Shown here one piece after another: positions 1-13,272 of a DNA stretch of 33,182 nucleotides (within the stretch, counting starts at the first letter, position 1; each line of letters opens with the position of its first letter). The stretch covers positions 16,547 to 49,728 of the forward strand of contig JAKVBT010000016.1 of assembly GCA_022446905.1 (NCBI GenBank), in the 5' to 3' direction. Position numbers and translations under genes: made by a program. The notes below the pieces were generated by a model, which was not told the origin of the DNA, searched no databases, and saw only the letters and a list, made by a program, of their open reading frames with translations. The stretch is from Phycisphaerales bacterium (GTDB taxonomy: Bacteria; Planctomycetota; Phycisphaerae; Phycisphaerales; SM1A02).

Positions 1-1260
1 CGCGAAGATGTTATTGCCCGGGCACGTGATGGCATTGAGCGGTTTGGCAGCGGCGATATTGATGAGTCTGTTTTTGCATCGCTTGCGGATCGGTTGCAGT
101 ATGTCGTGGGCGATTACGCTGATGTTGAGAGCTTTCGCCGCCTGCGTTCTGCGCTCGGAGAGGCAAAGCACCCACTGCACTACCTCGCAGTTCCACCAAG
201 CACATTCGCGATGGTGGTTGGTCACTTGCGTGATGGTGGTTGCGCCGACGGCGGTTCAGTGGTGGTTGAAAAGCCGTTTGGTCGCGACTTGGAATCTGCC
301 CAGTCGCTGAATGCAGCATTGCAGGATGTTTTTCCCGAGGACCGGATTTACCGCATCGATCACTATCTCGGTAAGGAAGCGCTCTTGAACTTGACGTATT
401 TCCGATTCGGGAATCGCTTTCTTGAGCCAGTCTGGTCGCGCGAGCATGTGCGTTGTGTACAGATCACCATGGCGGAGGACTTTGGGGTCGATGGCCGTGG
501 GGCTTTTTATGACGAAGCTGGAGCGCTTCGAGATGTACTTCAAAATCACATGCTGCAAATGATCTCTTTGTTAGCTATGGATCCACCTTCGGATGCAAGT
601 GATGAGGCGCTGCGAGATGCCAAAGTCAGAGTCTTGCGCTCCATGCGGCCACTGGAGTCCAATGCCATTGTTCGTGGGCAATATCAAGGGTACCTTGACG
701 AAGATGGCGTCAAAGCGGGGTCAGACACCGAGACCTATGTGGCGGCGAGGTTTTTTATCGATTCGTGGCGCTGGGCTGGTGTCCCATTCATCGTTCGAGT
801 CGGGAAGCGCATGCCTGTAACGGCGACGGAGGTGCTCGTTGACCTCAGGCATCCACCACAAGAATTGTTTGAAGACACGACGACTTCTGAGCGCAACTAC
901 TTTAGGTTTCAATTCAAGCCCTTTACGACAATCAGTATTGGCGCTCGGGCAAAGAAACCTGGCGATGCAATGATTGGCGAACAGATTGAGATGATTGCTT
1001 TGCATCAAGAGCCAGATGAGATGACGGCCTATGAGCGTTTAATTGAAGATGCGATTGTGGGTCAGACAGGCTTGTTTGCTCGAGTCGACGAAGTCGAGGC
1101 AGCCTGGAAGATCGTCGGTCCGGCAATAGCTCAGCCCACCCCCCTGGTTCAATACGAGCCGGGAAGTTGGGGGCCCTCGACAGCGGATCGGCTCACGGGT
1201 GATTTAGAGCGGTGGCACAATCCACTGACGCCAGTAAAGCCAATTCAGGTAGTGCGATGA
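1..1260 (+). CDS. zwf: Glucose-6-phosphate dehydrogenase, 5' end missing
   Basis: This enzyme oxidises glucose-6-phosphate to 6-phosphogluconolactone with NADP+, the first step of the oxidative pentose phosphate pathway in the cytoplasm. The frame is open from base 1, so the gene begins before the window. 419 residues are visible, and by comparison with family motif spacing about 60 N-terminal residues (the nucleotide-binding glycine loop) are missing. The substrate-binding motif RIDHYLGKE is at visible residues 118-126. The catalytic-base His of the NHMLQM segment is at about visible residue 183, the spacing known for the family. An EKPFG motif precedes them. The first ATG at 94 is internal and should not be taken as the start. 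The stop codon overlaps the start of the next gene (ATGA at 1257-1260), which carries out the next step of the pathway. The family assignment is secure. Confidence 0.96.
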   Translation, partial: REDVIARARDGIERFGSGDIDESVFASLADRLQYVVGDYADVESFRRLRSALGEAKHPLHYLAVPPSTFAMVVGHLRDGGCADGGSVVVEKPFGRDLESAQSLNAALQDVFPEDRIYRIDHYLGKEALLNLTYFRFGNRFLEPVWSREHVRCVQITMAEDFGVDGRGAFYDEAGALRDVLQNHMLQMISLLAMDPPSDASDEALRDAKVRVLRSMRPLESNAIVRGQYQGYLDEDGVKAGSDTETYVAARFFIDSWRWAGVPFIVRVGKRMPVTATEVLVDLRHPPQELFEDTTTSERNYFRFQFKPFTTISIGARAKKPGDAMIGEQIEMIALHQEPDEMTAYERLIEDAIVGQTGLFARVDEVEAAWKIVGPAIAQPTPLVQYEPGSWGPSTADRLTGDLERWHNPLTPVKPIQVVR

Positions 1261-1976
1261 TCGATGGCGTCAGCATCATGCCGTGTGGACTGACCTTGAA
1301 GCGTGTTGCAAAGGCCTCAGATATTGCAATCGCTGGGGCCCAGTGGCTGGCTGACACGATTGACCGGATAGTGACGTTGCGTGGTCGTTGCGTCTTGGCA
1401 GTCAGTGGTGGTCGGTCGCCTTGGCCCATGTTTGAACGGCTGGTCCAGACTTCTGGTGTGCCGTGGGAGCATGTGCATGTCATTCAGGTTGATGAGCGTG
1501 CCGCGCCAGATGGACACCAAGATCGAAATTGGACCTCGGCTGAGCGGGTGTTTAGCAGTGTGTTATCAGCGGAACATCTGCACCCCATGCCGGTCACCAG
1601 CGATGACCTAGTTGAGGTTGCAGAGGTCTATGCGCGGCTGATTGATCAACTATGTGATGGGGAAATTGACATTGTGCATTTGGGACTTGGCCCAGATGGA
1701 CATACAGCCTCACTTTTTCCAGATGATCCGATTCTTGATGTCGTAGATCGGTCCATCGCTTGGACCACGCATGAACATATGGGCCGCCTTCGTATGAGTA
1801 TGACCTTCCCCACATTGGCACGTGCAAGAAACCTCCTGTGGCAGATTGGTGGCGCTGACAAGCACACGATGCTGACTCGACTGCTTGAAGGAGATGCCAG
1901 CATTCCGGCAGGTCGTGTGCGTCGTGATCGTGCAATCATCCTTGCCGATGCTGAAGCGATTGGTGAACAGGTGTGA
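1257..1976 (+). CDS. pgl: 6-phosphogluconolactonase
   Basis: This enzyme hydrolyses 6-phosphogluconolactone to 6-phosphogluconate, directly after the upstream zwf product. It is about 239 residues long, normal for the DevB-type family. The sugar-phosphate-isomerase-like fold shows its usual motifs: an N-terminal LAVSGGRSP phosphate loop and a central LGLGPDGHTASLFPDDP segment that carries catalytic residues in this family. The frame also has an ATG at 1212, but ATG 1257 overlaps the zwf stop as ATGA and gives the expected length, so I chose it; translation is probably coupled to zwf. The SD upstream is weak, which fits re-initiation. The next gene starts 7 bases after the stop. Confidence 0.93.
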   Translation: MIDGVSIMPCGLTLKRVAKASDIAIAGAQWLADTIDRIVTLRGRCVLAVSGGRSPWPMFERLVQTSGVPWEHVHVIQVDERAAPDGHQDRNWTSAERVFSSVLSAEHLHPMPVTSDDLVEVAEVYARLIDQLCDGEIDIVHLGLGPDGHTASLFPDDPILDVVDRSIAWTTHEHMGRLRMSMTFPTLARARNLLWQIGGADKHTMLTRLLEGDASIPAGRVRRDRAIILADAEAIGEQV

Positions 1977-1983
1977 GTTGATC

Positions 1984-3843
1984 ATGTCGCTTCGCAACAA
2001 GTTGGTCGTGTTGGTTCTGATCCCGCTTGCGCTGATCTTTGCAACGGTGATCATTATTCAATACCGATCTATGAGGACCTTGGCGATGACTGAAGCCAAG
2101 GGGCACACCCTATTATTGACACAGGCGACTGCGGGCGCCATTGAAGCAGATTTGGCGCGAATTGTTCACGTAACGCACACCGGCGCCGCTGCGTTGGAGT
2201 CTGCGCCGGAACTGAGTGGAGATCGCGTCTGGACGTTGTTGGCGCGTCTAGTTGAACAGGTTCCACTGGTCGACGGGGCTTCGATTGCCTATACGCCTGA
2301 GGCCGTCATTCCGGGCATGCCTGCCGCGCCCTATGTCTGGAATGCCAATGGCACCATTCGCCAAGAAGATCTTGCTGAGGCCTATGACTACACCATTAAA
2401 AACTGGTTTACGGAAGCAGTCGATGGCAACGCAGGTTGGACGGATCCTTATGAGGGCCCAGTTTTTGGTGGCCTACTAGTGTCCTATTCGGTGCCGGTGA
2501 TTCGAAACGACCGCGTCGAAGCAGTGATTTCCGTGGATATTCCGTTGCTTCCTCTGCAATCCAGACTCAAGGTCGGCGAGTTCTCCAATACATCTGGTTT
2601 TTTGGTTGGTTCAGGGGACCGATTCATTTCCAACCCAGATCCAAAATTGATCATGCAGCCCGTGACAACGCATGATGGACCAGCCATGTTGGCGGAGGCG
2701 CCACCCGGCACACTGATTCAGATGGATGATTGGCCAAATCAACAGCCACACATCGTTGCTTTTGAACCCATTCCAACTGCGGATTGGATGTTCGCCGCAG
2801 CCATCGAAGAGTCTCAAGTGCTTGGTCCAGTGCGTGCGCAACTGACATGGAATGTGTCAATGCTTGTGGCTGGTGGTCTGCTTGTGACATGCATTGTGTT
2901 GTTGACTGGCCTGCGACTCACTCGTGATTTACGCATGCTTGCTCTTGGCGTCTCAAAAGTGTCTGGCGGTGACCTTGCAGCCAGCATCGATCCCATGCGT
3001 CGCCATGACGAACTTGGAAAGTTGGCATTGGACTTCAATCGTATGACCAAGCAACTTGGGCGGACGGTTGACCGTGTGGCAAGTGAGCAGGCGGCGCGGC
3101 GGGCGATGGAGCGCGAGTTGGATGTGGCCCGTGAGATTCAGGAGGAGATGCTTCCCCATGAGTATCCCATGTTGGCAGATCATCCCGACGTTGATCTTCA
3201 TGCAGTGAATCATCCTGCTCGATACGTGGCTGGCGATTTCTTCGATTACTGGGTTCGAGATGAGGTACTGACTATCGTGCTGGCTGATGTGGCTGGTTCT
3301 GGAATGCCAGCAGCTTTAGTCATGGTTCGAGCGATGACGTTGCTCCGTCAGTTTGACGATCCTGCCAGTGCATTGACCGCAGTGGTGTCGAGAACCAACG
3401 AAGCTTTGTGCAACGACAATGAGCGGCAGCTTTTTGTAACAGGTGTCATTGTCCGCATTAATCTGGCGACTTGGTCTTATCAATTGGTCTCCGCTGGTCA
3501 CTTGCCGGCACTGCTTGGGGATGGCGAGGGGGAAGTCAAGCAAGAGGGCGATTCCACAGGGCCACTTTTAGGGGTCATTCCCGCTGCTACTTGGGAAGCC
3601 CGCCAGGGCGTTCTGGCGCCAGGGCACTGGTTAGCCCTCTATACCGATGGCATTACCGAGGCGACGGATGTCGCTGGCGAGGAACTTGGAGTAGGCCGAC
3701 TCGCTGAAGCCTTGGCAGAGCTTGGTTCTGTAGAGTCTGAAGTGCTTTCAGAACAGGCGCTTAGCGCTGCCACGATGTGGCATGGTGGCCCAGTCAATGA
3801 CGATTTAAGCGCGATGGTGCTCCGCAGGCCCAAATCTGCTTGA
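1984..3843 (+). CDS. Membrane sensor with HAMP domain and SpoIIE/RsbU-type PP2C phosphatase
   Basis: A 619-residue predicted signalling protein. Residues about 5-30 form a transmembrane helix. An extracytoplasmic region of about 260 residues follows, resembling dCache/PDC sensors (it contains GGLLVSYSVPVI and VISVDIPL strands). A second helix lies near residue 300, then a HAMP-like segment, a short coiled coil (ELDVAREIQEEMLP) and a SpoIIE-type PP2C domain. The phosphatase metal-site motifs are present: GDFFDYW (Asp at about 418), LADVAGSGMPAALVM, LYTDGITEA and a terminal DDLSAMVL. Such proteins usually dephosphorylate an anti-sigma-factor antagonist (RsbV/SpoIIAA type); no such partner is visible here. 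The frame opens at 1885, but ATG 1984 lies just after the pgl stop and directly precedes the membrane helix. The 7-base gap suggests co-transcription with zwf-pgl. The sensed ligand is unknown. Confidence 0.88.
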   Translation: MSLRNKLVVLVLIPLALIFATVIIIQYRSMRTLAMTEAKGHTLLLTQATAGAIEADLARIVHVTHTGAAALESAPELSGDRVWTLLARLVEQVPLVDGASIAYTPEAVIPGMPAAPYVWNANGTIRQEDLAEAYDYTIKNWFTEAVDGNAGWTDPYEGPVFGGLLVSYSVPVIRNDRVEAVISVDIPLLPLQSRLKVGEFSNTSGFLVGSGDRFISNPDPKLIMQPVTTHDGPAMLAEAPPGTLIQMDDWPNQQPHIVAFEPIPTADWMFAAAIEESQVLGPVRAQLTWNVSMLVAGGLLVTCIVLLTGLRLTRDLRMLALGVSKVSGGDLAASIDPMRRHDELGKLALDFNRMTKQLGRTVDRVASEQAARRAMERELDVAREIQEEMLPHEYPMLADHPDVDLHAVNHPARYVAGDFFDYWVRDEVLTIVLADVAGSGMPAALVMVRAMTLLRQFDDPASALTAVVSRTNEALCNDNERQLFVTGVIVRINLATWSYQLVSAGHLPALLGDGEGEVKQEGDSTGPLLGVIPAATWEARQGVLAPGHWLALYTDGITEATDVAGEELGVGRLAEALAELGSVESEVLSEQALSAATMWHGGPVNDDLSAMVLRRPKSA

Positions 3844-3935: not shown

Positions 3936-5840
3936 ATGCGATTGGCCCCATCTGTATTGGTATCTGCGTGCTTGCTCGGCGCAGCCAATGGACTGCATGC
4001 GTCCACCGACGCGATTGTGCTTTATTCAGCTGGTATTGACGGCATTTTGAATGATGCCAAGGATGCTGGCTTCCATCAGGCATTGGTGCGTATGGAGGAG
4101 CACGAAATGAGTCTGCCGCCAGGTATTTCGCGGCGTGAAAGATTCGAATTTCAGACCATGGTGAAACTGCTTCTCAGTGAGTTGGATGTTCGTGTTGCGG
4201 TACGCCCCAACGCGCCACCTCATGAAAATCCATTCACGTTGACCATTCGCTCACATGGAAACGAGGGCGCTTCACCACAGTCCTTGATTTCAGCCGCTCA
4301 TCAAGTAGCTGAGTACGCGCGGGTGCCTGCTGGCGTTCCAGATGCTCAGCACCCTGGTTTCCTCCGATACAACGATAATGATCCTGACCCACTAACTTGG
4401 ATTGGTCTTGAGAAATCCAATGGTGTTGAGCAGGCGGTCCTATCGGTTGGAGCACCTCCAGAGGAATCATCTCTCGATTGGTCAGCATGTGGGCTTCCTT
4501 ATGGAACAAAGGTCATCGGGGGCATGCTTATTGACTTCAATGAACTGCAGCCTCTCTTGGGCATGGCGATGATGGCTCAGCCGCAGGCCGGCGATCTTTT
4601 GAAGGCATGGGGCCTCATGGGGCCAGATGCACTTCGTATTCAAATGGCCATGGGACGGGATGGGGAACTCATGCATCTCGGAGGGCGCGTTTCCAATTGG
4701 ACGAAGCACTTTGGGCAGTACGTCGTTGATGGTGGTGTGCGCTCATCAGATATTGACCGTATTCCGATGGATGCTGTGGCTGCTCAGGTCACACGTGTCA
4801 ACATTCGGGCACTGCTCAACTCACTGATTGGTATTGGCGATTCAATGATGCCGCCTTTAGGTCGCGGACCAGATGGAAAGTCAGTCAAAGCATCAGAAAT
4901 GGCGAGTGAGCAGATCAAAATGATGCTTGGTGTTAATCCAAAGACTGAGTTGATCGACTATCTCGGCGACGCTGTGGCTTTTTACCGCTCTCCATCAACA
5001 GGTGGCGGTGGTCTGATGAGCATGGTGATGTTGGTCGAAGCATCAAACCCTGATGGTTTGGCCACATCGATTGGACTGCTTGCGGCCCGAGCGAATTCGA
5101 TGATGATGTCGATGACTGAGGGCTATGTAGCGATGTCTACCTGGACGCATCCAGATTGCGGCGAGGTTATTTCGCTGACCTTTCCTGGACTGCCGGTTCC
5201 TGTCGAAGTCTCGATGGCTGTCAAAGAAAACTGGTTAGTGGCGACACTTACGCCGCAGGCCATGATCGCCGCATGTCGTCAGTTTGATGCCCGGAGTTCT
5301 CTGCGCCAAGCCAGAAGTTTCCGCCAGAGTATCGGCATGGATGGCATTGGCGCAATGCAGATCAACTACTCGGATACGCCAGCTCAAATGGCTGATGGAT
5401 ACGGTTATATGGTTGGTCTTGCATCAGCCATCTCCAACTACAGTCGACCTAAAAATGGGCACACGCATTCTGCGGATTTAGTGGTTCCCACATTCGGAGA
5501 TCTTGCTGATGATGCCCATCCATGTGCACTATTGGTCTCTGTAGATGGCGATGATGTTGTGTATCAAGGGACCGCTGATCCAAGCATCAATGTGCTTATG
5601 ACCGGCATGATGGCGAACATAGATTCCAACTTGTTGTTGCCGATGAGCGCTGGTGTGGTGATGCCGGCAATTATGGAAGCTAGAAGCGCAGCGATGAGAG
5701 CACGCGAGATAAGTGATCGTCGGGCTCGCGAGGCTCATGATGGGCAAGTGCAGCACGGACACGATCATCATGACAAGCATGAACATATAGAACACTCGCA
5801 CGTGGATCATCCACATGCTAAAGAGGGAGAGGAACAATGA
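3936..5840 (+). CDS. Secreted protein of unknown function with a His-rich C-terminal tail
   Basis: I do not recognise this 634-residue protein. It has a Sec signal peptide (MRLAPSVLVSACLLG, likely cleaved after LHA near residue 23) and no other clear membrane helix, so it is probably periplasmic or exported. The long central part is mixed alpha/beta, rich in Met and Gly, with no catalytic motif I can name. The last 35 or so residues are packed with His, Asp and Glu (HGHDHHDKHEH and similar), which suggests metal binding, perhaps zinc, nickel or copper. The start at 3936 is set by a strong SD, AGGAGGG at 3924-3930; the frame extends to 3885 but the extra residues are basic and would spoil the signal peptide. 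Its stop overlaps the lemA start (ATGA at 5837), so it is translated together with LemA and probably works with it. Confidence 0.8.
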   Translation: MRLAPSVLVSACLLGAANGLHASTDAIVLYSAGIDGILNDAKDAGFHQALVRMEEHEMSLPPGISRRERFEFQTMVKLLLSELDVRVAVRPNAPPHENPFTLTIRSHGNEGASPQSLISAAHQVAEYARVPAGVPDAQHPGFLRYNDNDPDPLTWIGLEKSNGVEQAVLSVGAPPEESSLDWSACGLPYGTKVIGGMLIDFNELQPLLGMAMMAQPQAGDLLKAWGLMGPDALRIQMAMGRDGELMHLGGRVSNWTKHFGQYVVDGGVRSSDIDRIPMDAVAAQVTRVNIRALLNSLIGIGDSMMPPLGRGPDGKSVKASEMASEQIKMMLGVNPKTELIDYLGDAVAFYRSPSTGGGGLMSMVMLVEASNPDGLATSIGLLAARANSMMMSMTEGYVAMSTWTHPDCGEVISLTFPGLPVPVEVSMAVKENWLVATLTPQAMIAACRQFDARSSLRQARSFRQSIGMDGIGAMQINYSDTPAQMADGYGYMVGLASAISNYSRPKNGHTHSADLVVPTFGDLADDAHPCALLVSVDGDDVVYQGTADPSINVLMTGMMANIDSNLLLPMSAGVVMPAIMEARSAAMRAREISDRRAREAHDGQVQHGHDHHDKHEHIEHSHVDHPHAKEGEEQ

Positions 5841-6460
5841 TGATGGACTTGATGTTGGCACTGAGTGCCGCAGCGATTTTACTAATCGTGATTGGTGGTG
5901 TTGCGCTAGTGCTGATCGTATTGGTGATCAGCATCTACAACTCGCTTGTCGCCCTTCGGAATCGGGTAAAAAACGGCTGGGCACAGATTGATGTACAGCT
6001 TAAGCGTCGGTACGACCTGATTCCCAATCTTGTCGAAACCGCCAAGGGCTATATGAAGCATGAGGCATCAACGCTTGAGGCTGTGACGAATGCCCGTAAT
6101 CAGGCGATGTCTGCTGCGCAGGCAGTTGCATCGAACCCCACCGATGGAGGTGCGGTGAAGTCACTCGGTGGTGCTGAAAGTGCCCTTCGCGGTGCACTCG
6201 GCAATCTGACAGTCGCAATGGAGGCTTACCCCGATCTCAAGGCTAGCGCCAATATGATGCAGGTGCAAGAAGAGCTTACGACGACGGAGAACAAGGTGGC
6301 TTTTTCGCGCCAGGCTTATAACGATGGTGTGATGGTCTACAACACAAAGCGTGAGAGCTTTCCATCAAACATCATCGCGGGCATGTTTAACTTCTCTGAA
6401 GCATCTATGTTTGAGATCGAAGATGCTGCGGCCAAAGAGGCGCCAAAGGTTGAGTTCTGA
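5837..6460 (+). CDS. lemA: LemA family membrane protein
   Basis: A 207-residue LemA protein. One transmembrane helix spans about residues 8-36, followed by the family hallmark running from IYNSLVALRNRV through the NGWAQIDVQLKRR and YDLIPNLVETAKGYMKHE segments, then a coiled-coil helical domain. The helix places the C-terminal domain on one side of the inner membrane. The biochemical role of LemA is not established; in many bacteria it sits next to an HtpX/M48-type membrane protease, as here. The start is fixed by the ATGA overlap with the upstream secreted protein, with GGGAGAGGA acting as SD inside that gene's end. Length is typical of the family. The protease gene begins 38 bases downstream. 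Confidence 0.93.
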   Translation: MMMDLMLALSAAAILLIVIGGVALVLIVLVISIYNSLVALRNRVKNGWAQIDVQLKRRYDLIPNLVETAKGYMKHEASTLEAVTNARNQAMSAAQAVASNPTDGGAVKSLGGAESALRGALGNLTVAMEAYPDLKASANMMQVQEELTTTENKVAFSRQAYNDGVMVYNTKRESFPSNIIAGMFNFSEASMFEIEDAAAKEAPKVEF

Positions 6461-6498
6461 TTTCCTGAATCTTTCTGACAGCAAGATCGGATTCTTTT

Positions 6499-8505
6499 GT
6501 GAACTTCTTTGAGGCTCAGGACAAAGCTCATCGGAAGACAGGGCTATTGGTTTGGCTCTTAGTTGGCGGTCTCGCATCGATGACCGTTGGCATGTATGCC
6601 ATTTTGATGTTGGTAGTGCATGTGCTTGGTGCTTATGACCAGATCAGGGCACAGCGTGCGACAGAGCGGGGCGAGTCATTTCGTGAAACGCGTTTTCAGG
6701 AATGGGCCGACCAGGAATCTTTGGTCTTATGGGATCTAGATGTCTTCCTGCTTGCATTTGGTCTCATGCTTGTGCTTGTTGGTGGAGGGTTTCTCTATCG
6801 CTACTTGCAACTCCGTGCTGGTGGGGAAGCTGTTGCAGAGATGATGGGGGGGAAGCGCATCGAACCGGACACTTCCAACGCGCATGAACAGCGTGCGCTC
6901 AATGTGGTCGAGGAGATGGCGATTGCTTCTGGTGTTCCGGTTCCGCCGGTGTACGAGATTCCCTCCGATGCAATCAATGCCTTTGCGGCGGGTCATACTG
7001 TGGATCAGGCAGCAATTGGTTTGACACGTGGAACCATCATGCTGCCGCGTGATGAGTTGCAGGGCATCGTAGCGCACGAATTCAGCCACATTTTCAACGG
7101 AGACATGCGATTGAATCTGCGTTTGATCGCAGTCATTAATGGCGTCATGGTCTTGGGCATTGCGGGTCTACTCTTGGCGAGAACAGTCGCTTACGGCATG
7201 CTCTTTGGCGGTGGTGGGCGAAGTAGTAATGACAAGGGCAATGGTGCGGCAATTGCCATTGGTTTGATGGTCGTCGGCTGGCTGATTGCTGCCATTGGCT
7301 TTATGGGCACGCTTGTGGCGCGGTTGATTCAGGCGGCGGTGTCGCGTCAGCGGGAGTTCCTTGCTGATGCTAGTGCCGTGCAATTCACGCGCAATCCAGA
7401 TGGGATTGCAGGAGCGCTTGCCCGTATTCAGACTAAGCCCCAAAGAACACGCATTTCTGGAGAGGCCAGTCAATTTAACCACATGTTCTTTTCTCAGGCG
7501 GTGCCGGCTATGTTTGCGACACATCCCCCATTGGATGCTCGTATTGACCGGATCACAGGTGGGCAGCCCGTGCATGTACGAGATGTGAGTGTTTCTACAG
7601 AGCAACCTGCTGCGGAGGGGAGTTCCGCCAGCCGGGAATTTCATCCTCTGGTTGCTGGAGCTGTGGCAATCGGTCGAGTTCAACAAGCGATTGCATCGGC
7701 CGGAGATCTCGATGCTATTTCGATGGACTGGACTCGGCGTGTGTTGAATGCAATCCCTCAATCACTTCGTGATGCGGCTCACTCGCCTCAGTGTGTGCGT
7801 GCATTGATTGCTGCAATGCTCATTGAAGATGAGGGTACAGATGATGCCGAAGCAACAGGGTCCCAGCTGGCAGCTGTCGAGCAGCTCTTGCCCGCGGAGG
7901 AGGTTGCCCGAGTGGCGCAACTTCGTCCACTACTTGCATCTTTGGAGACATCCTGCCGTGTGCCGCTTCTAGACATGACCAGTCCAGCTGTGCATGCGCT
8001 TTCAGACACTCAATCACAAGATCTGACGAAGTTGGTTGATGCTCTCGTCTCAGCTGATCGCAAGATCAGCCGCTTCGAATGGGTGGTTGCCATGTTGGTT
8101 GATGCGATGATCGATCGATCTGGTGGGGCGCAACATCAAGCAAGCGCAACCATCAGATCAATGCATTCTTCCATTGTCTCGCTGTTGTCAATTGTGGCCA
8201 TCACCGGATCTGCAGATCAGGTTTCTGCCATAGGTTCATTGCAAGCGGGCTGTAGTGCGATTGAGGTACCCGCGCCCCAGTCCATATCCAGCGTTTCATT
8301 GAAGCAGCTAGCTTCAGTGGTTCATGATCTTCGTACGCTTCGTTTCAATGAACGAAAGCGGCTGCTCGCAGCAGTTGTTGCCGTGGTGGATCATGATGGG
8401 AAAACTACATTGGCAGAAGCTGAGATGGTCCGGGCCGTGTCAGAAGTGATGGCCGTGCCGATGCCTCCAGTTGCTCCGGATGAGGCTGTCGCGGAGTCTG
8501 GCTGA
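6499..8505 (+). CDS. M48 (HtpX/Ste24-like) membrane zinc metalloprotease with C-terminal TerB-like domain
   Basis: A 668-residue membrane protease, about twice the length of classical HtpX. Helices lie near residues 15-45 and 75-100. The zinc motif HEFSH is at residues 193-197 in a cytoplasmic-facing segment, two more helices follow (about 212-240 and 250-280), and the third-ligand region is REFLADASAVQF. This is the HtpX plan and predicts membrane protein quality control. The extra 300 residues hold helical repeats ending in segments such as LVSADRKISRFEWVV and VVAVVDHDGKTTLAEAE. These look like TerB-type domains, where acidic residues bind divalent metal; that call is by pattern only. The start is GTG 6499 with a poor SD; the next in-frame ATG would cut into the first helix. 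It follows lemA by 38 bases and probably shares its mRNA. Confidence 0.88.
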   Translation: MNFFEAQDKAHRKTGLLVWLLVGGLASMTVGMYAILMLVVHVLGAYDQIRAQRATERGESFRETRFQEWADQESLVLWDLDVFLLAFGLMLVLVGGGFLYRYLQLRAGGEAVAEMMGGKRIEPDTSNAHEQRALNVVEEMAIASGVPVPPVYEIPSDAINAFAAGHTVDQAAIGLTRGTIMLPRDELQGIVAHEFSHIFNGDMRLNLRLIAVINGVMVLGIAGLLLARTVAYGMLFGGGGRSSNDKGNGAAIAIGLMVVGWLIAAIGFMGTLVARLIQAAVSRQREFLADASAVQFTRNPDGIAGALARIQTKPQRTRISGEASQFNHMFFSQAVPAMFATHPPLDARIDRITGGQPVHVRDVSVSTEQPAAEGSSASREFHPLVAGAVAIGRVQQAIASAGDLDAISMDWTRRVLNAIPQSLRDAAHSPQCVRALIAAMLIEDEGTDDAEATGSQLAAVEQLLPAEEVARVAQLRPLLASLETSCRVPLLDMTSPAVHALSDTQSQDLTKLVDALVSADRKISRFEWVVAMLVDAMIDRSGGAQHQASATIRSMHSSIVSLLSIVAITGSADQVSAIGSLQAGCSAIEVPAPQSISSVSLKQLASVVHDLRTLRFNERKRLLAAVVAVVDHDGKTTLAEAEMVRAVSEVMAVPMPPVAPDEAVAESG

Positions 8506-8509
8506 TCCG

Positions 8510-9652
8510 TTAAGTCGTTGCCCAATCAAGTCCGAGGTGCAGTCCTGTGCCAAGATCTTCCTGCCCGTCTTGGGTGACGACCACCATGTCCTCAAGTCGG
8601 AGACCGCCAACTGCGGGCCCGTAAAGACCTGGTTCAATTGTGATGACGTCTCCAGCAACCAGCGGTGGGCCGCCAATATCGAGCAGTGGGGGTTCATGCA
8701 CCGCGAGCCCGACGCCATGTCCGGTGCCATGCACCATGGCGATGCGATCGGGGAGTGCATCATCCTCAGGTAGTCCAAGATGAAATCCGTGGGCCATGAT
8801 GCGTTCGGTGGTGGCCTGATGCACCACCTCACCAGTCACCCCGGCGCGTGTGGCCGATTCTCCGGCCAATTTTGCCTCAGACACAGCGTCATACATGGAT
8901 TGCACTAGCGGCGGTATGTCACCGTGGACAACGGTTCGGGTGCAGTCACCGTTGTAACGCGTTGATTTGCATCGGGGAAAGACATCGATGATGACTGGCT
9001 CACCAGTGCGCAGTGCGCTAGCGCCATGATGATGACAATCAGCCCCTTCGGAGCCACCTGCGACAATGCTCATTGGATTGTCGTACCCTCGAGTGAGTAG
9101 GTGTGTATCGATCAGAGCGCGTACGCGGTCAGATGTCAGTGTTCCGCCATCAAGTTGTAGTACACCAGCAGCATCAGGTGAGGCATTGGCGATGGTTTCA
9201 CAAGCCATTGCAATTGCCGCTTGGGTTTCAGCCTGAGCGGAGCGAAGTGCATCAAGCTCCTCTGCATCTTTGGAACGTCGCTGAGCGACGCCAAGATCGT
9301 GGTCATATTCAATTGATATGCCACCTTTTTGGAGGGCGTCAATAAAGGACAGTGCGAGTGTGCGGTCGGATCTGACTGTTGAGATTTCATGTTGCCGCAA
9401 TGCTTCAGCAACGGATTGGGCGACGGCGGTTTCACGGTCACCAGAGAGACCCTCATTGGGCGTGAAATCAGCAGGACATGCAATTTGGTCAGCGCGGGCG
9501 TGGGCTTTAGCTCGGTCCATTTCAATGTCACGAATGATGAGTAGCCGAGTTCCATCCATGTCAATCAGTGCAGCAGGATCTCCAGCACTGAAGCGAATCG
9601 CATGAAAGAGGGTGTCGTTATTCGATGGGATTCCAGCAATCAATACAGTCAT
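8510..9652 (-). CDS. M24 family metallopeptidase (Xaa-Pro aminopeptidase-like)
   Basis: A 380-residue cytoplasmic peptidase of the pita-bread fold (methionine aminopeptidase/prolidase/Xaa-Pro aminopeptidase superfamily). The N-terminal 150 residues are the creatinase-like non-catalytic domain. The C-terminal domain carries the five metal ligands: Asp223 (VIIDVFP), Asp236 (GDCTRT), His in VHGTGHGVGL, Glu in TIEPGLY and Glu in LRLEDM. It should cleave an N-terminal residue before proline, or process a dipeptide; substrate cannot be read from the sequence. The frame stays open to 9757, but that extension would run through the 12-bp hairpin at 9720-9747, so ATG 9652 is preferred. No good SD precedes it (AGAGG lies only one base away), which leaves some doubt. 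The 3' end lies 4 bases from the convergent M48 gene. Confidence 0.9.
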   Translation of the reverse strand: MTVLIAGIPSNNDTLFHAIRFSAGDPAALIDMDGTRLLIIRDIEMDRAKAHARADQIACPADFTPNEGLSGDRETAVAQSVAEALRQHEISTVRSDRTLALSFIDALQKGGISIEYDHDLGVAQRRSKDAEELDALRSAQAETQAAIAMACETIANASPDAAGVLQLDGGTLTSDRVRALIDTHLLTRGYDNPMSIVAGGSEGADCHHHGASALRTGEPVIIDVFPRCKSTRYNGDCTRTVVHGDIPPLVQSMYDAVSEAKLAGESATRAGVTGEVVHQATTERIMAHGFHLGLPEDDALPDRIAMVHGTGHGVGLAVHEPPLLDIGGPPLVAGDVITIEPGLYGPAVGGLRLEDMVVVTQDGQEDLGTGLHLGLDWATT

Positions 9653-9719
9653 GCCTCTACGGTAGCGAGAGAGATGCCAACTTGACACCGGAAGTTCATT
9701 GTTCTTCTGCTGCGCATGA

Positions 9720-9747
9720 CAGCAGGCTCGCCGAAGCGAGCCTGCTG
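9720..9747 (-). terminator. 12-bp perfect hairpin with UUCG loop after the zinc protease gene
   Basis: CAGCAGGCTCGC at 9720-9731 pairs perfectly with 9736-9747. Read on the minus strand the loop is TTCG, a very stable tetraloop in RNA. It lies about 38 bases past the stop of the minus-strand zinc protease gene and before the M24 gene. There is no T-run after it on that strand, so it is either a non-canonical terminator or a 3'-end stabiliser. Confidence 0.6.
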
Positions 9748-9784
9748 TGGTATCCACCGTCAGGAGACGGGTTTGATCAAAGAG

Positions 9785-12700
9785 CTATTCTCCGGTGGGT
9801 TGACCGAGGAATGGGAACATTGAACCTCCGCCACCAGCAGAAATGTCATCGGTGTTGTAGAGGTACTGAGCGTTCAGTGAGCGATCAATCAGTGAACTTG
9901 CTTCGGCAAGGTGGGCTCTTGAATAGGGGTCAAGATCCGCTCCTTTGCGTCGCATCGCACTGTCAATCGTCGCCTTGAGTTCACGAAGTTGCATGCGGCT
10001 GAGATTCGACACCGGTGCGGTGTAGAAGCCACTACCAGCGGGCATGCTCAGGTCGATGAGTCGCTTGAGGTGCTCACGTTGAGCATTGCGGCGGAGACTC
10101 GTGATGTAAGGGTTGCGTGCCGAGTACGAACCTTCTGGCCCACCATCGAGTTCCGTCCAGACGGAGTCGCGAACGATGGTGAGTACTTCTGGCACAGAGA
10201 GCACATCCTCACCTTCTATGGCCCTAAACTCGTTGTCATAGACTCGATTAAGGGTCTGAGGATTCAGGATGCCATTCATCGCCATAGCCTGGATGGCTGC
10301 AATACGATCGTGGATCGGATACGTCTCATCGGTGTAGATGCTCCTCATGCCGCCATCGTCCCACCACTTGTCGACACTCATACGACGCAGCAACTCAGGT
10401 GACAGACCATAGGCCTCGTCGAGCATCGTGTTTTCGAGCACGATCTGCATGGCACGTCGCTGCTGATCCGCTTCGATTGGAGCGATTGGATCATGATCAC
10501 CTTCATCGCCCTTCTTGTAGCGATTCACATAGCTACCACCAATCCAGTTCGCAGCCACGTTGACTGCACCGAGTTGCTTGTTGAGCAACATGTCATACGC
10601 CTTGCGGGCTTCAGCCCAGCTTTCCCCTTCTTCAACCATCTCTTCAAGAATCTGTTCACGCAGGTGTTTGGCCAGGCCAATTTGCGAATCACAGTAGTTG
10701 AGTGGATTAGCGCCGTTGTCGAATCGACGGGCACGGGGATCAGGCCCCCATGTGTCCTCGTCAGTCGCGTAGACCAACATAGGGTCAGTGGCTCGAGCGA
10801 GCACCTTCTCAGGATGTCTGGCGGTATAGCCATACTCAATGGCCCAGTAGTCGTAGGGGCCAAGTGTCATCAGGGTCCAAGCACCTTGTGTCTCACCAAG
10901 TTGGTAGTTGATGTTGATGGGGAGGTAGTCCATCACCGATCCCGAACTCGCACCCGTAAATGAATCATCATTGACTTCGGCCAGGGTGTAGATCGTGCTT
11001 CCCTTGAAGTTGTGACGTAGGCCGAGGGTATGGCCGACTTCGTGCATAACAACTTCCATCAACAGCGGGCCGATGAATTCCTCAGGGACACCGTCGAGAT
11101 ACTGCTTGTCATCTTTGGTCGATGCGCTGTTCTTGGAGCTCTTGGGTGTTGAGTCCTTGCGATTGGCACCGTCATCATTCGATGCCACATCATCGTCATC
11201 AGACTGGCCATCCTCGTTTTTGACAAGATCATCCTCATCGATGTCCGCATCGCCACTGTCGTCGGAGTCTTGATCAGAAGCACTGCGTGCAGCTGTGAGC
11301 GTCATGCTCATGCTTCCTTCTGTCATCGTTCCGGCCATCTGGCCCTCATCAATAGTGAGCACCAATGGTGGGCCGCCACCGCTGTCTTCATCAGCGGGAT
11401 TGAGTGTGAGGCGATTGTCGTTTGGCTCCCAAGATCCCACCAATTCGACCGTGCCAAACATGCCCATTTCAGCAGAACCTGCGACTTCGTTTTGCTTGTT
11501 CATGGACAGTTCAAGTGTGATGTCCATGGAATGCGCACTGCCGTCCGGTCCAGTCATTTCAATTGAACCATGCCAAATGCCAGAGACTGGATCATTGGGT
11601 CCAGCCCATGCTTCGCCGGGGGCGTCGAGGTTCATGATCAACTCAGGATTGAGTCGAATCATGGCGACTTCCATCGCCTTGCAAGCAGCGTGGCGGCAAT
11701 TGCCATTGACCTGCGAGACGCGCCCAATCAGGCCGTCGTACTGTTCGTCTCCGATGAGATCGGTGTGGGAGGTTGGGGTTGCAAAGCCAGGAATCATGCC
11801 TGCGGCACGGAGTGCAGCTTCGCGCTTGACCTGACTGAGGAGTTCGGATCGTTCAGCACGATCGGCTAAGAGCACTTTGGGGTGCCAGTCGGGTCGTTCT
11901 GAAAGCCAGGTCAGTGCTTCTGGGCCCCAGCCTTCCAACGCGGTCTCGGGAACGAGATCCTTCCAAGTACGCGACCATCCGTTGATGAAGCCTTCATCCA
12001 TCACGATGTCGGCATCGAGAATCTGTCCAGTCTTGGGGTGCACACGGCTCGGCCCAATGGCGAAGCCCATATCTGCGTTGGTCCAGAGGAAGAAGTTGTA
12101 GCGAGCGTCTTCAGGGTCCTTCTCCATGTGCGCGCCGGTATCAGCGTCCTGTTGGTAGACCTCGATGGCGTTCACAATGCCAACGTTCTCGAATGCTTTA
12201 TTCCACTCCAGAATGCCGTCGCGCACCCAGCGGCGATACCGCACTGGGGTGGTGTGTTCGACATAGAAGACGATGGGCTCCTTTGGAGGGCTCATCTTGA
12301 GTTTTGGATCTGCCTTCTGGATATTCCACCGATTGATATAGCGAATCCACGGATCTTCCTTGGAGGCATCACCGATGTCGCGGTGCGCGGTTGTGAAGTA
12401 CCCAACCCGTTCGTCAGCCACTCGTGGCTTATAACCCGTGTTTTCGGGAATCTCAGCGATGGAGTAGGCCACTGTGGCGAGACGCCCATTTCGCAGTGGC
12501 ATCCCAAAAGCCAGTTCAATGTTGTTCGGGAAGGCCTTGGCTTTTTCGATCGTGGCCAAACGTGTGTTGGCACCAGAGGTGGCACCACCGAAGAACTTGG
12601 TGGACTGTTTGACCAAAAGATCGGTCATATCGATGACGGGTCCACCACCTGGGCCAATCGTTCGGATCGGAACATCGAGGATGACCTGATCGGTGAACAC

Positions 12701-13144
12701 ACGCTTGGTACCAGCCTTGGATTGCTTATCGCCAGTTGATCGTACGGCATAGTTGGGCTGAATCAGTGCCAGTCGCTTGCCGAAGCGCTTCCAATGGGCG
12801 TACATATCTCCTGCCTGAACACCAGCTTGTGGGATGCCACCGGCGATTGTGTAGGCAAAGAAGATGTTTTGGTTCGCAAAGTTCCTCGGGAGTTCCGCCA
12901 TTACGTCACCAGTCTTGTGGTTGACATACAGCGTGTACATGCCCGGTTTACCGTCGACGGTCGAGATGACCTTCTTGTAGGTGTCTTTTACGACCGTGTC
13001 GAACTTAGGGAAATCAGAGGTATCGCCGCGAGTGGCAGCGACTCTGGTATCGATGGTGGTCGTGGGATCGATCGCGTCTGTTCCAAGCGCGATCGCGGCG
13101 ACTCCCAAGCCGCCAATTGCGGCGAGTGTCAATGGCATACGCAT
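9785..13144 (-). CDS. Large secreted zinc metalloprotease, DUF5117/DUF4953 type, with inserted beta domain
   Basis: A 1119-residue exported protease. A signal peptide covers about residues 1-24 (MRMPLTLAAIGGLG). The DUF5118/DUF5117-like N-terminal half follows, then the zinc site HEVGHTLGLRH with its first His at residue 701 (the HExxHxxGxxH metzincin signature). The C-terminal DUF4953-like region is several hundred residues long. Odd feature: between the cysteine-containing segment that normally leads to the zinc helix and the helix itself there is extra sequence. Residues about 513-620 look like a beta-rich domain (GIWHGSIEM, TVELVGSW, SMSMTLTAA), and about 621-680 are a low-complexity Asp/Ser/Lys linker. 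The start is ATG 13144 with SD AGGAGA at 13151-13156; the frame extends to 13198 but that start has no better support and lengthens the signal peptide. Substrate is unknown; the family is common in planctomycetes and Bacteroidetes. Confidence 0.88.
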   Translation of the reverse strand: MRMPLTLAAIGGLGVAAIALGTDAIDPTTTIDTRVAATRGDTSDFPKFDTVVKDTYKKVISTVDGKPGMYTLYVNHKTGDVMAELPRNFANQNIFFAYTIAGGIPQAGVQAGDMYAHWKRFGKRLALIQPNYAVRSTGDKQSKAGTKRVFTDQVILDVPIRTIGPGGGPVIDMTDLLVKQSTKFFGGATSGANTRLATIEKAKAFPNNIELAFGMPLRNGRLATVAYSIAEIPENTGYKPRVADERVGYFTTAHRDIGDASKEDPWIRYINRWNIQKADPKLKMSPPKEPIVFYVEHTTPVRYRRWVRDGILEWNKAFENVGIVNAIEVYQQDADTGAHMEKDPEDARYNFFLWTNADMGFAIGPSRVHPKTGQILDADIVMDEGFINGWSRTWKDLVPETALEGWGPEALTWLSERPDWHPKVLLADRAERSELLSQVKREAALRAAGMIPGFATPTSHTDLIGDEQYDGLIGRVSQVNGNCRHAACKAMEVAMIRLNPELIMNLDAPGEAWAGPNDPVSGIWHGSIEMTGPDGSAHSMDITLELSMNKQNEVAGSAEMGMFGTVELVGSWEPNDNRLTLNPADEDSGGGPPLVLTIDEGQMAGTMTEGSMSMTLTAARSASDQDSDDSGDADIDEDDLVKNEDGQSDDDDVASNDDGANRKDSTPKSSKNSASTKDDKQYLDGVPEEFIGPLLMEVVMHEVGHTLGLRHNFKGSTIYTLAEVNDDSFTGASSGSVMDYLPININYQLGETQGAWTLMTLGPYDYWAIEYGYTARHPEKVLARATDPMLVYATDEDTWGPDPRARRFDNGANPLNYCDSQIGLAKHLREQILEEMVEEGESWAEARKAYDMLLNKQLGAVNVAANWIGGSYVNRYKKGDEGDHDPIAPIEADQQRRAMQIVLENTMLDEAYGLSPELLRRMSVDKWWDDGGMRSIYTDETYPIHDRIAAIQAMAMNGILNPQTLNRVYDNEFRAIEGEDVLSVPEVLTIVRDSVWTELDGGPEGSYSARNPYITSLRRNAQREHLKRLIDLSMPAGSGFYTAPVSNLSRMQLRELKATIDSAMRRKGADLDPYSRAHLAEASSLIDRSLNAQYLYNTDDISAGGGGSMFPFLGQPTGE

Positions 13145-13272
13145 GTTGTGTCTCCTGAACACTGGTGGATAGTTCCGCCCTTTGATGGACAGGGCCAATC
13201 CTACCCTCCAAACGGTGGGCGGAGTGGCTGTTTAGACCCCTACGGCCCCAATCTAGTGGATGTTCGAACCGG

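Follow-up and report, generated by a model that had tools for sequence, protein, structure and literature searches.

Do three tightly packed genes in a planctomycete genome constitute a new envelope or metal-sensing system, or are they a widespread protease pair with a locally acquired neighbor? The genes lie in a 33,182-nucleotide stretch of DNA from a Phycisphaerales bacterium (the window; contig C8 of a 2.58-Mb host assembly in 79 contigs). As described in an earlier reading of the letters alone (the sequence-only reading), they are consecutive open reading frames (ORFs), all on the plus strand, at 3936-5840 (634 residues), 5837-6460 (207 residues), and 6499-8505 (668 residues). They code, respectively, for an exported-looking protein with a His/Asp/Glu tail (here P1), a LemA protein, and an M48 membrane metalloprotease with a long C-terminal region. 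That reading saw in P1 the secreted, metal-binding-like new element of a candidate undescribed system. We favor, with a probability of about 0.6, a plainer picture, namely, an ordinary envelope protease pair plus a relocated envelope protein as an extra gene; on this view, the trio of genes appears to be a peculiarity of this lineage and not a new system of general occurrence.

The core of the locus would be a membrane M48 zinc protease of the HtpX-like type with a TerB-like tail, acting in envelope quality control with LemA as its membrane partner. The LemA protein scores 196.3 bits against the Pfam LemA model (cut-off 26.2; E = 3.1e-58) and the protease 87 bits against Peptidase_M48 (cut-off 20.3; E = 1.8e-24); the former also gives 82.3 bits against a model of the magnetosome protein MamQ, whose cut-off is 250. 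Alignment of 32 M48 sequences revealed an invariant HEFSH zinc motif (residues 193-197; 7075-7089, plus strand), in which H193, E194, and H197 are conserved throughout together with E286, which we take to be the downstream Glu zinc ligand, and with D633 and E640 in the tail. In NCBIfam, the protease hits HtpX models and no others, and like HtpX it is an HExxH membrane protease; however, it reaches none of the equivalog cut-offs of the eight HtpX models listed (best 179.4 bits versus 355) and differs from HtpX in its tail of about 300 residues and its LemA neighbor. In the structure model (mean predicted local distance difference test score [pLDDT], 84.9), the protease part resembles Ste24, BepA, and HtpX (3cqb; Z 10.0, 99 residues). 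A TerB-like region in the extra C-terminal residues, as suspected earlier, is supported: residues 550-659 (8146-8475, plus strand), which include D633 and E640, align in VIA-align with 2h5n, presumably itself TerB-like (Z 7.8, 109 aligned of 124, 3.8 Å), a likeness that may be just a common helical arrangement, and Pfam TerB (PF05099) is found at an E value of ≤1 in 23 of the 32 homologs (best 9.6e-6). The window protein itself stays below the TerB cut-off (E = 0.25; 12.1 bits versus 24.4).

LemA and the tailed M48 are an old, common pair. Across 61 genomes of the order, comprising the host genome and others from its genus, family, and order, an M48 of any kind occurs in 57 and LemA in 52 (E ≤ 1e-5). 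A tailed M48 directly follows lemA in 33 of 35 genomes, a count restricted to M48 matches running to the end of the tail; it excludes four with split or partial matches (G006, G009, G023, and G036) and retains G007, where the match is in two pieces around masked DNA. The exceptions are G045, with a 1.5-kb gap, and G014, where the contig has no listed lemA. In a sample of the phylum, 57 of 119 genomes have an M48 match at 1e-10; eight matches from outside the class are near full length, tail included. The pair is also found on plasmid pJCM12687 of Mycobacterium branderi (WP_083134649.1 and WP_083134639.1), where LemA (PF04011) likewise directly precedes an M48 with the extended C terminus (identity to the window M48, 33.5% over 78% of its length), but no P1, SpoIIE, zwf, or pgl is annotated alongside. 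The M48 enzyme with LemA most likely performs membrane or envelope protein turnover. Among the matches listed from the open-licence literature, such pairs are hardly studied as pairs, LemA, HtpX, and M48 were not found treated together, and the P1-LemA-M48 unit is not described. In Flavobacterium, an sppA mutant is reported to express lemA and a TPM-domain gene, among others, at raised levels (PMC13236525).

P1, in turn, proved to be recognizable through its relatives. The protein itself matches nothing in Pfam (0 families) or NCBIfam: it does not reach the DUF3352 cut-off, and the pilin-like match (DUF1559/pseudopilin) present in relatives is absent from both scans. However, five full-length relatives (L108, L109, L112, L116, and L119) exceed the curated DUF3352 (PF11832) cut-off, with L108 at 48.1 bits versus 26.8, and among 44 aligned relatives, DUF3352 is detected in 12, DUF1559 in 11, and T2SSG in 1 (E ≤ 0.01). 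Those distant relatives whose alignment covers most of the profile combine DUF3352 with a helix of the DUF1559 type around residues 575-622. We therefore dropped the view of P1 as an orphan secreted protein; the export predicted by the sequence-only reading still looks likely, its "unrecognized" status does not stand, and these profile matches make P1 a diverged member of the wider DUF3352 kin. In the relatives, the helix of the DUF1559/T2SSG type (PF07596 and PF08334) aligns to about P1 residues 575-606; it is internal here, near the C terminus, and P1 retains only the helix region, plus its His/Asp/Glu tail. No mention of DUF3352 was found in the open-licence literature; for Rhodopirellula, one study reports that 9 of 74 DUF1559 genes rose within an hour of the onset of cold and salt shock (PMC2754498).

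The family appears to have been inherited within Phycisphaerales. An 18-sequence P1 profile retrieved P1-like proteins from 259 of 298 genomes of the class (E ≤ 0.001), although many of these matches are near 1e-5 and may reflect the pilin-like end alone; the window protein as query matches 22 of the 61 genomes of the order at an E value of ≤0.01, the last ones weakly. Seven metagenome assemblies, bearing the labels Phycisphaerales, Phycisphaerae, or Planctomycetota, make up the named relatives in which P1 was found. A tree of 29 P1 proteins broadly tracks families, with 7 of its 26 inner branches open.

The P1 structure model (mean pLDDT, 88.6; predicted template modeling score, 0.84) suggests an α/β body followed by a C-terminal hydrophobic, pilin-like helix that could serve as an anchor. 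The structural check produced no clear match to a solved structure: Foldseek with this model returned none at an E value of ≤0.001, and the best VIA-align row is TP0453 (3k8j; Z 8.2, 188 residues, 5.8 Å), followed by TiME, TM1622, DcrB, RseB, and Apa (Z 4.5-5.7), all within residues ~270-550 and near noise level. Several of these rows presumably share a Mog1p/PsbP-like fold, which we take as no more than a lead. Against PDB sequences, the profile hit two entries weakly, including a type IV pilin (E = 0.23; profile positions 577-632). The two halves of the profile align at E = 0.018, versus 0.29-0.70 for three column shuffles, but the alignment probability is only 1.2%, and we do not claim an internal duplication.

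How firmly is P1 linked to the protease pair? In its own genus (g1), M48 occurs in seven of nine genomes and P1 in six of those seven. P1 lies directly before lemA in five of them (G000, G001, G003, G007, and G008), and in G006 the contig stops just after P1, with a lemA-like start visible there. In G005 (91% complete), SpoIIE, lemA, and M48 follow one another with no P1 between, and P1 was not found elsewhere in that genome at an E value of ≤0.01, an absence that we interpret as a probable loss; in G002 and G004 (83% and 87% complete), M48, LemA, and P1 are all unseen. A second genus, g48 (G180), has zwf-pgl-P1-lemA-M48 without SpoIIE. As the linkage reaches a second genus, it cannot be put down to an accident in a single genome. 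The P1 stop overlaps the lemA start, where three tandem ATGs (5837, 5840, and 5843) are available; the spacing of an AGAGGA that ends at 5833 suits the second or third better, so that the overlap noted earlier is real, but the ATGA coupling may be only one of three start options. Five of six congeneric loci offer an ATG that overlaps the P1 stop, and the two genes are separated by 43 bp in G001 and by 66 bp in g48.

These observations raise the possibility that P1 is a dedicated partner of LemA-M48, such as a substrate adaptor, sensor, or inhibitor, in which the periplasmic body would read the state of the envelope and the helix and tail would signal to the protease. The overlapping frames and the persistence in two genera speak for it, as does an Arg-rich stretch after the hydrophobic segment of the window P1, which, by the positive-inside rule, favors a cytoplasmic tail. 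The wider distribution, however, runs the other way. Outside g1, we sampled 70 of the 259 P1-profile genomes, taking the strongest listed matches; 46 of these have LemA at 1e-10, and only in G180 is P1 near lemA (445 bp between matches). In G299, the two share a contig but are 1.2 Mb apart, and in the rest of the 46 they are on separate contigs. With fragmented assemblies, at most three candidates scored per genome, and some distant P1 relatives, this count of linked genes is a lower bound. Reciprocally, the P1 profile found nothing in 20 lemA-M48 loci of 5-19.5 kb each (G005 and 19 from other genera). Rather than a neighborhood conserved in many genera, there are thus two genera, with the genes apart in 45 of 46 outside-genus genomes that have both. 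The sequence-only reading had itself proposed that homologs mostly away from lemA would tell against a functional unit, which is largely what these counts show, and the lock of P1 to lemA does not hold as a general element even in the genus, given the P1-free locus of G005. P1 is also far less conserved within the genus than LemA (44-53% versus 78-86% identity to the window proteins). We regard the partnership as unproven and, although the best placed of the alternatives, unlikely.

The pair-plus-relocated-gene interpretation draws on the setting of P1 in most of the related genera examined, where it lies beside lipopolysaccharide genes. We counted 23 loci outside g1 and g48 with known surroundings and a P1 profile score better than 1e-100 (L023-L035, L128, and L131-L139); L023-L035 were built into the profile, which inflates their scores, and the window protein alone gives 3e-90 to 3e-13. 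A GT9 heptosyltransferase divergently adjoins P1, with ≤370 bases between the aligned parts, in 18 of the 23 (L024, L025, L027-L029, L031-L034, and L131-L139), spanning families f1, f2, f3, and f4, and Maf, LpxK, and an HldE-type gene then follow in 11 of the 23. The GT9 queries derive from two of the loci, L025 and L031; Pfam confirms GT9 and LpxK in six (L024, L025, L027, L031, L032, and L033). A motif-based view of these neighbors as ATP-synthase genes was replaced by the Pfam assignments heptosyltransferase, Maf, LpxK, and PfkB/CTP_transf (HldE-like). The five loci without GT9 are L128, L026, L030, L035, and L023, the last a hardly informative 4.2-kb contig. Among the loci of 13 weaker P1 relatives (L036, L037, and L140-L150), none has the heptosyltransferase, and an HldE-type gene appears only at L036, at a distance of 3.9 kb. 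The GT9-Maf-LpxK-HldE cluster occurs without a strong adjoining P1 in G000, G005, G008, and G015; in G180, just Maf and LpxK of the cluster were detected. The presence of P1 beside the heptosyltransferase in 18 of 23 loci points, from gene order, to a role in the outer envelope. The simplest reading is that P1 left the lipopolysaccharide locus for the lemA locus at zwf-pgl in the g1/g48 lineage, where it most likely serves outer-envelope upkeep and would be co-expressed with the protease pair.

A more specific proposal casts P1 as an outer-membrane or lipopolysaccharide assembly factor or sensor, its gene ancestrally divergent from heptosyltransferase-Maf-LpxK-HldE, that in one lineage joined LemA-M48-TerB to form a module similar in logic, but unrelated, to BepA-LptD. 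The likeness lies in an M48 protease engaged in envelope upkeep, and the window M48 aligns with 6ait at Z 10.7 over 176 residues. We know of no LemA or P1-like partner of BepA. BepA is reported to be a periplasmic M48 enzyme in BepA-LptD outer-membrane quality control (PMC7950410 and PMC8423444), whereas the window M48 is a membrane protease. We consider this proposal unlikely.

The gene order around the unit bears on a third alternative, in which P1 sits by chance, with no shared function or regulation, in a long run of genes. The linkage of the three genes is tight as first described, but the co-directional run is longer, extending as zwf-pgl-SpoIIE-P1-lemA-M48. It begins with zwf (glucose-6-phosphate dehydrogenase; 94-1260, plus strand; Pfam G6PD_N from profile position 75, and G6PD_C), the N terminus of which is lost at the window start, and continues with pgl (6-phosphogluconolactonase family; 1212-1976, plus strand; PF01182, 2.6e-47), whose real start probably lies within this ORF, and a SpoIIE-type phosphatase with PDC/Cache sensor and HAMP domains by Pfam (1978-3843, plus strand). 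The run ends at a convergent M24 metallopeptidase (8510-9757, minus strand; Pfam M24, 1.1e-39); an ORF that looks similar to this neighbor also flanks the g48 locus. Such mixed functions among six co-directional genes, and the fluidity of the stretch, would fit mere proximity: the phosphatase is directly 5' of P1 (of lemA in G005) in all g1 loci reaching that far and absent at the g48 locus, and P1 is absent in G005. On the other side, the frame overlap favors a single transcript, and in each of its two main settings P1 has envelope genes nearby, which leaves mere proximity quite improbable. The PDC/Cache-HAMP-SpoIIE phosphatase could be a sensor for the run. Farther downstream, at 9785-13198 on the minus strand, lies a gene for a 1137-residue protein that carries the met-zincin domains DUF5117 and DUF4953 together with an insert rich in Ser and Asp.

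The termini of P1 bear on both its localization and the metal-sensing idea. Residues 1-22 (3936-4001, plus strand) resemble a signal peptide, with a hydropathy peak at residues 3-21 and disorder of residues 1-20 in the model, so that P1 appears to be exported, as predicted from hydropathy and the model. VSAC at residues 9-12 resembles a lipobox, but four aligned congeners have no Cys there, and we rejected the lipoprotein assignment. A hydrophobic segment at about residues 562-580 (5619-5675, plus strand), aligned to the pilin-like helix of relatives, is a putative membrane anchor, with a mean hydropathy of 1.36 in the window P1 and 1.61-1.92 in four congeners; the evidence for anchoring is suggestive only. 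A membrane-spanning segment would put the tail in the cytoplasm, at odds with the earlier view of a secreted tail.

The tail itself (residues 600-634; 5733-5837, plus strand; residues 612-634 with pLDDT <50) was correctly noted. Its 35 residues include 11 His, and at least 11 His in the last 35 residues is found in only 3 of 689 distinct stop-to-stop ORFs of 300 or more residues from 131 sequences, a count that includes noncoding frames and excludes the masked congener G007. It occupies the place where relatives carry a pilin-like end and is most likely a recent disordered replacement of that end. After residue 582, the His share is 21% in the window protein, 14% in G003, 9% in G006, and 8% in G008; the G007 protein is His-rich as far as the masked DNA, and the G001 protein ends in a pilin-like domain instead. 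A P1 homolog in G258 (L104) has a 27% His tail, with 11 His in the last 35 residues, in a locus with lipopolysaccharide genes and no lemA hit. The tail of the L103 homolog is purely acidic, and an unrelated, membrane-protein-like 305-residue ORF on the plus strand of L025 ends in a 35-residue stretch with 12 His. As the tail differs among members of the genus and turns up again in another family, it cannot define the function of the P1 family. A module in which the protease is regulated through binding of zinc or a similar metal to the tail would suit the rarity of such tails and the zinc-protease nature of M48, but with a tail weak or absent in congeners (G003 being His-rich too), present in G258 apart from lemA, and matched by the unrelated L025 ORF, we rejected metal sensing as the main explanation and consider it very improbable.

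Several observations weigh against our preferred reading of a protease pair joined by a relocated envelope protein. The stop/start overlap in five of six congeneric loci, together with persistence in two genera, exceeds what a passive neighborhood would give. The adjacency on the lipopolysaccharide side is divergent and may itself be passive synteny, and five of the six f4 loci belong to one genus. The P1 tree places g48 outside a group formed by g1 and the unlinked G015/L128 (support 91/88), so that events may have followed another order. The hydropathy of the putative window anchor is below that of a segment inside the folded body (1.51). Finally, weak P1-profile matches (7e-5 to 9e-4) lie some kilobases from the cluster in G005, G008, G015, and G180. 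ORFs with weak matches of this kind, perhaps pilin-type proteins sharing the C-terminal helix only, are located some kilobases from GT9/Maf/LpxK at L166 (4192-5250), L167 (2548-3477), L168 (15266-15786), and L169 (3305-4450), and also in L131, L134, and L137.

The case warns that a frame overlap and a His tail are not enough to infer a metal-sensing system. Its remaining interest lies in how a divergent protein of the DUF3352 type has been gained, is missing, and has apparently moved between lipopolysaccharide and protease loci. Congeners with and without P1, together with the P1 family bordering lipopolysaccharide genes, offer a concrete lead to an uncharacterized envelope family of planctomycetes.

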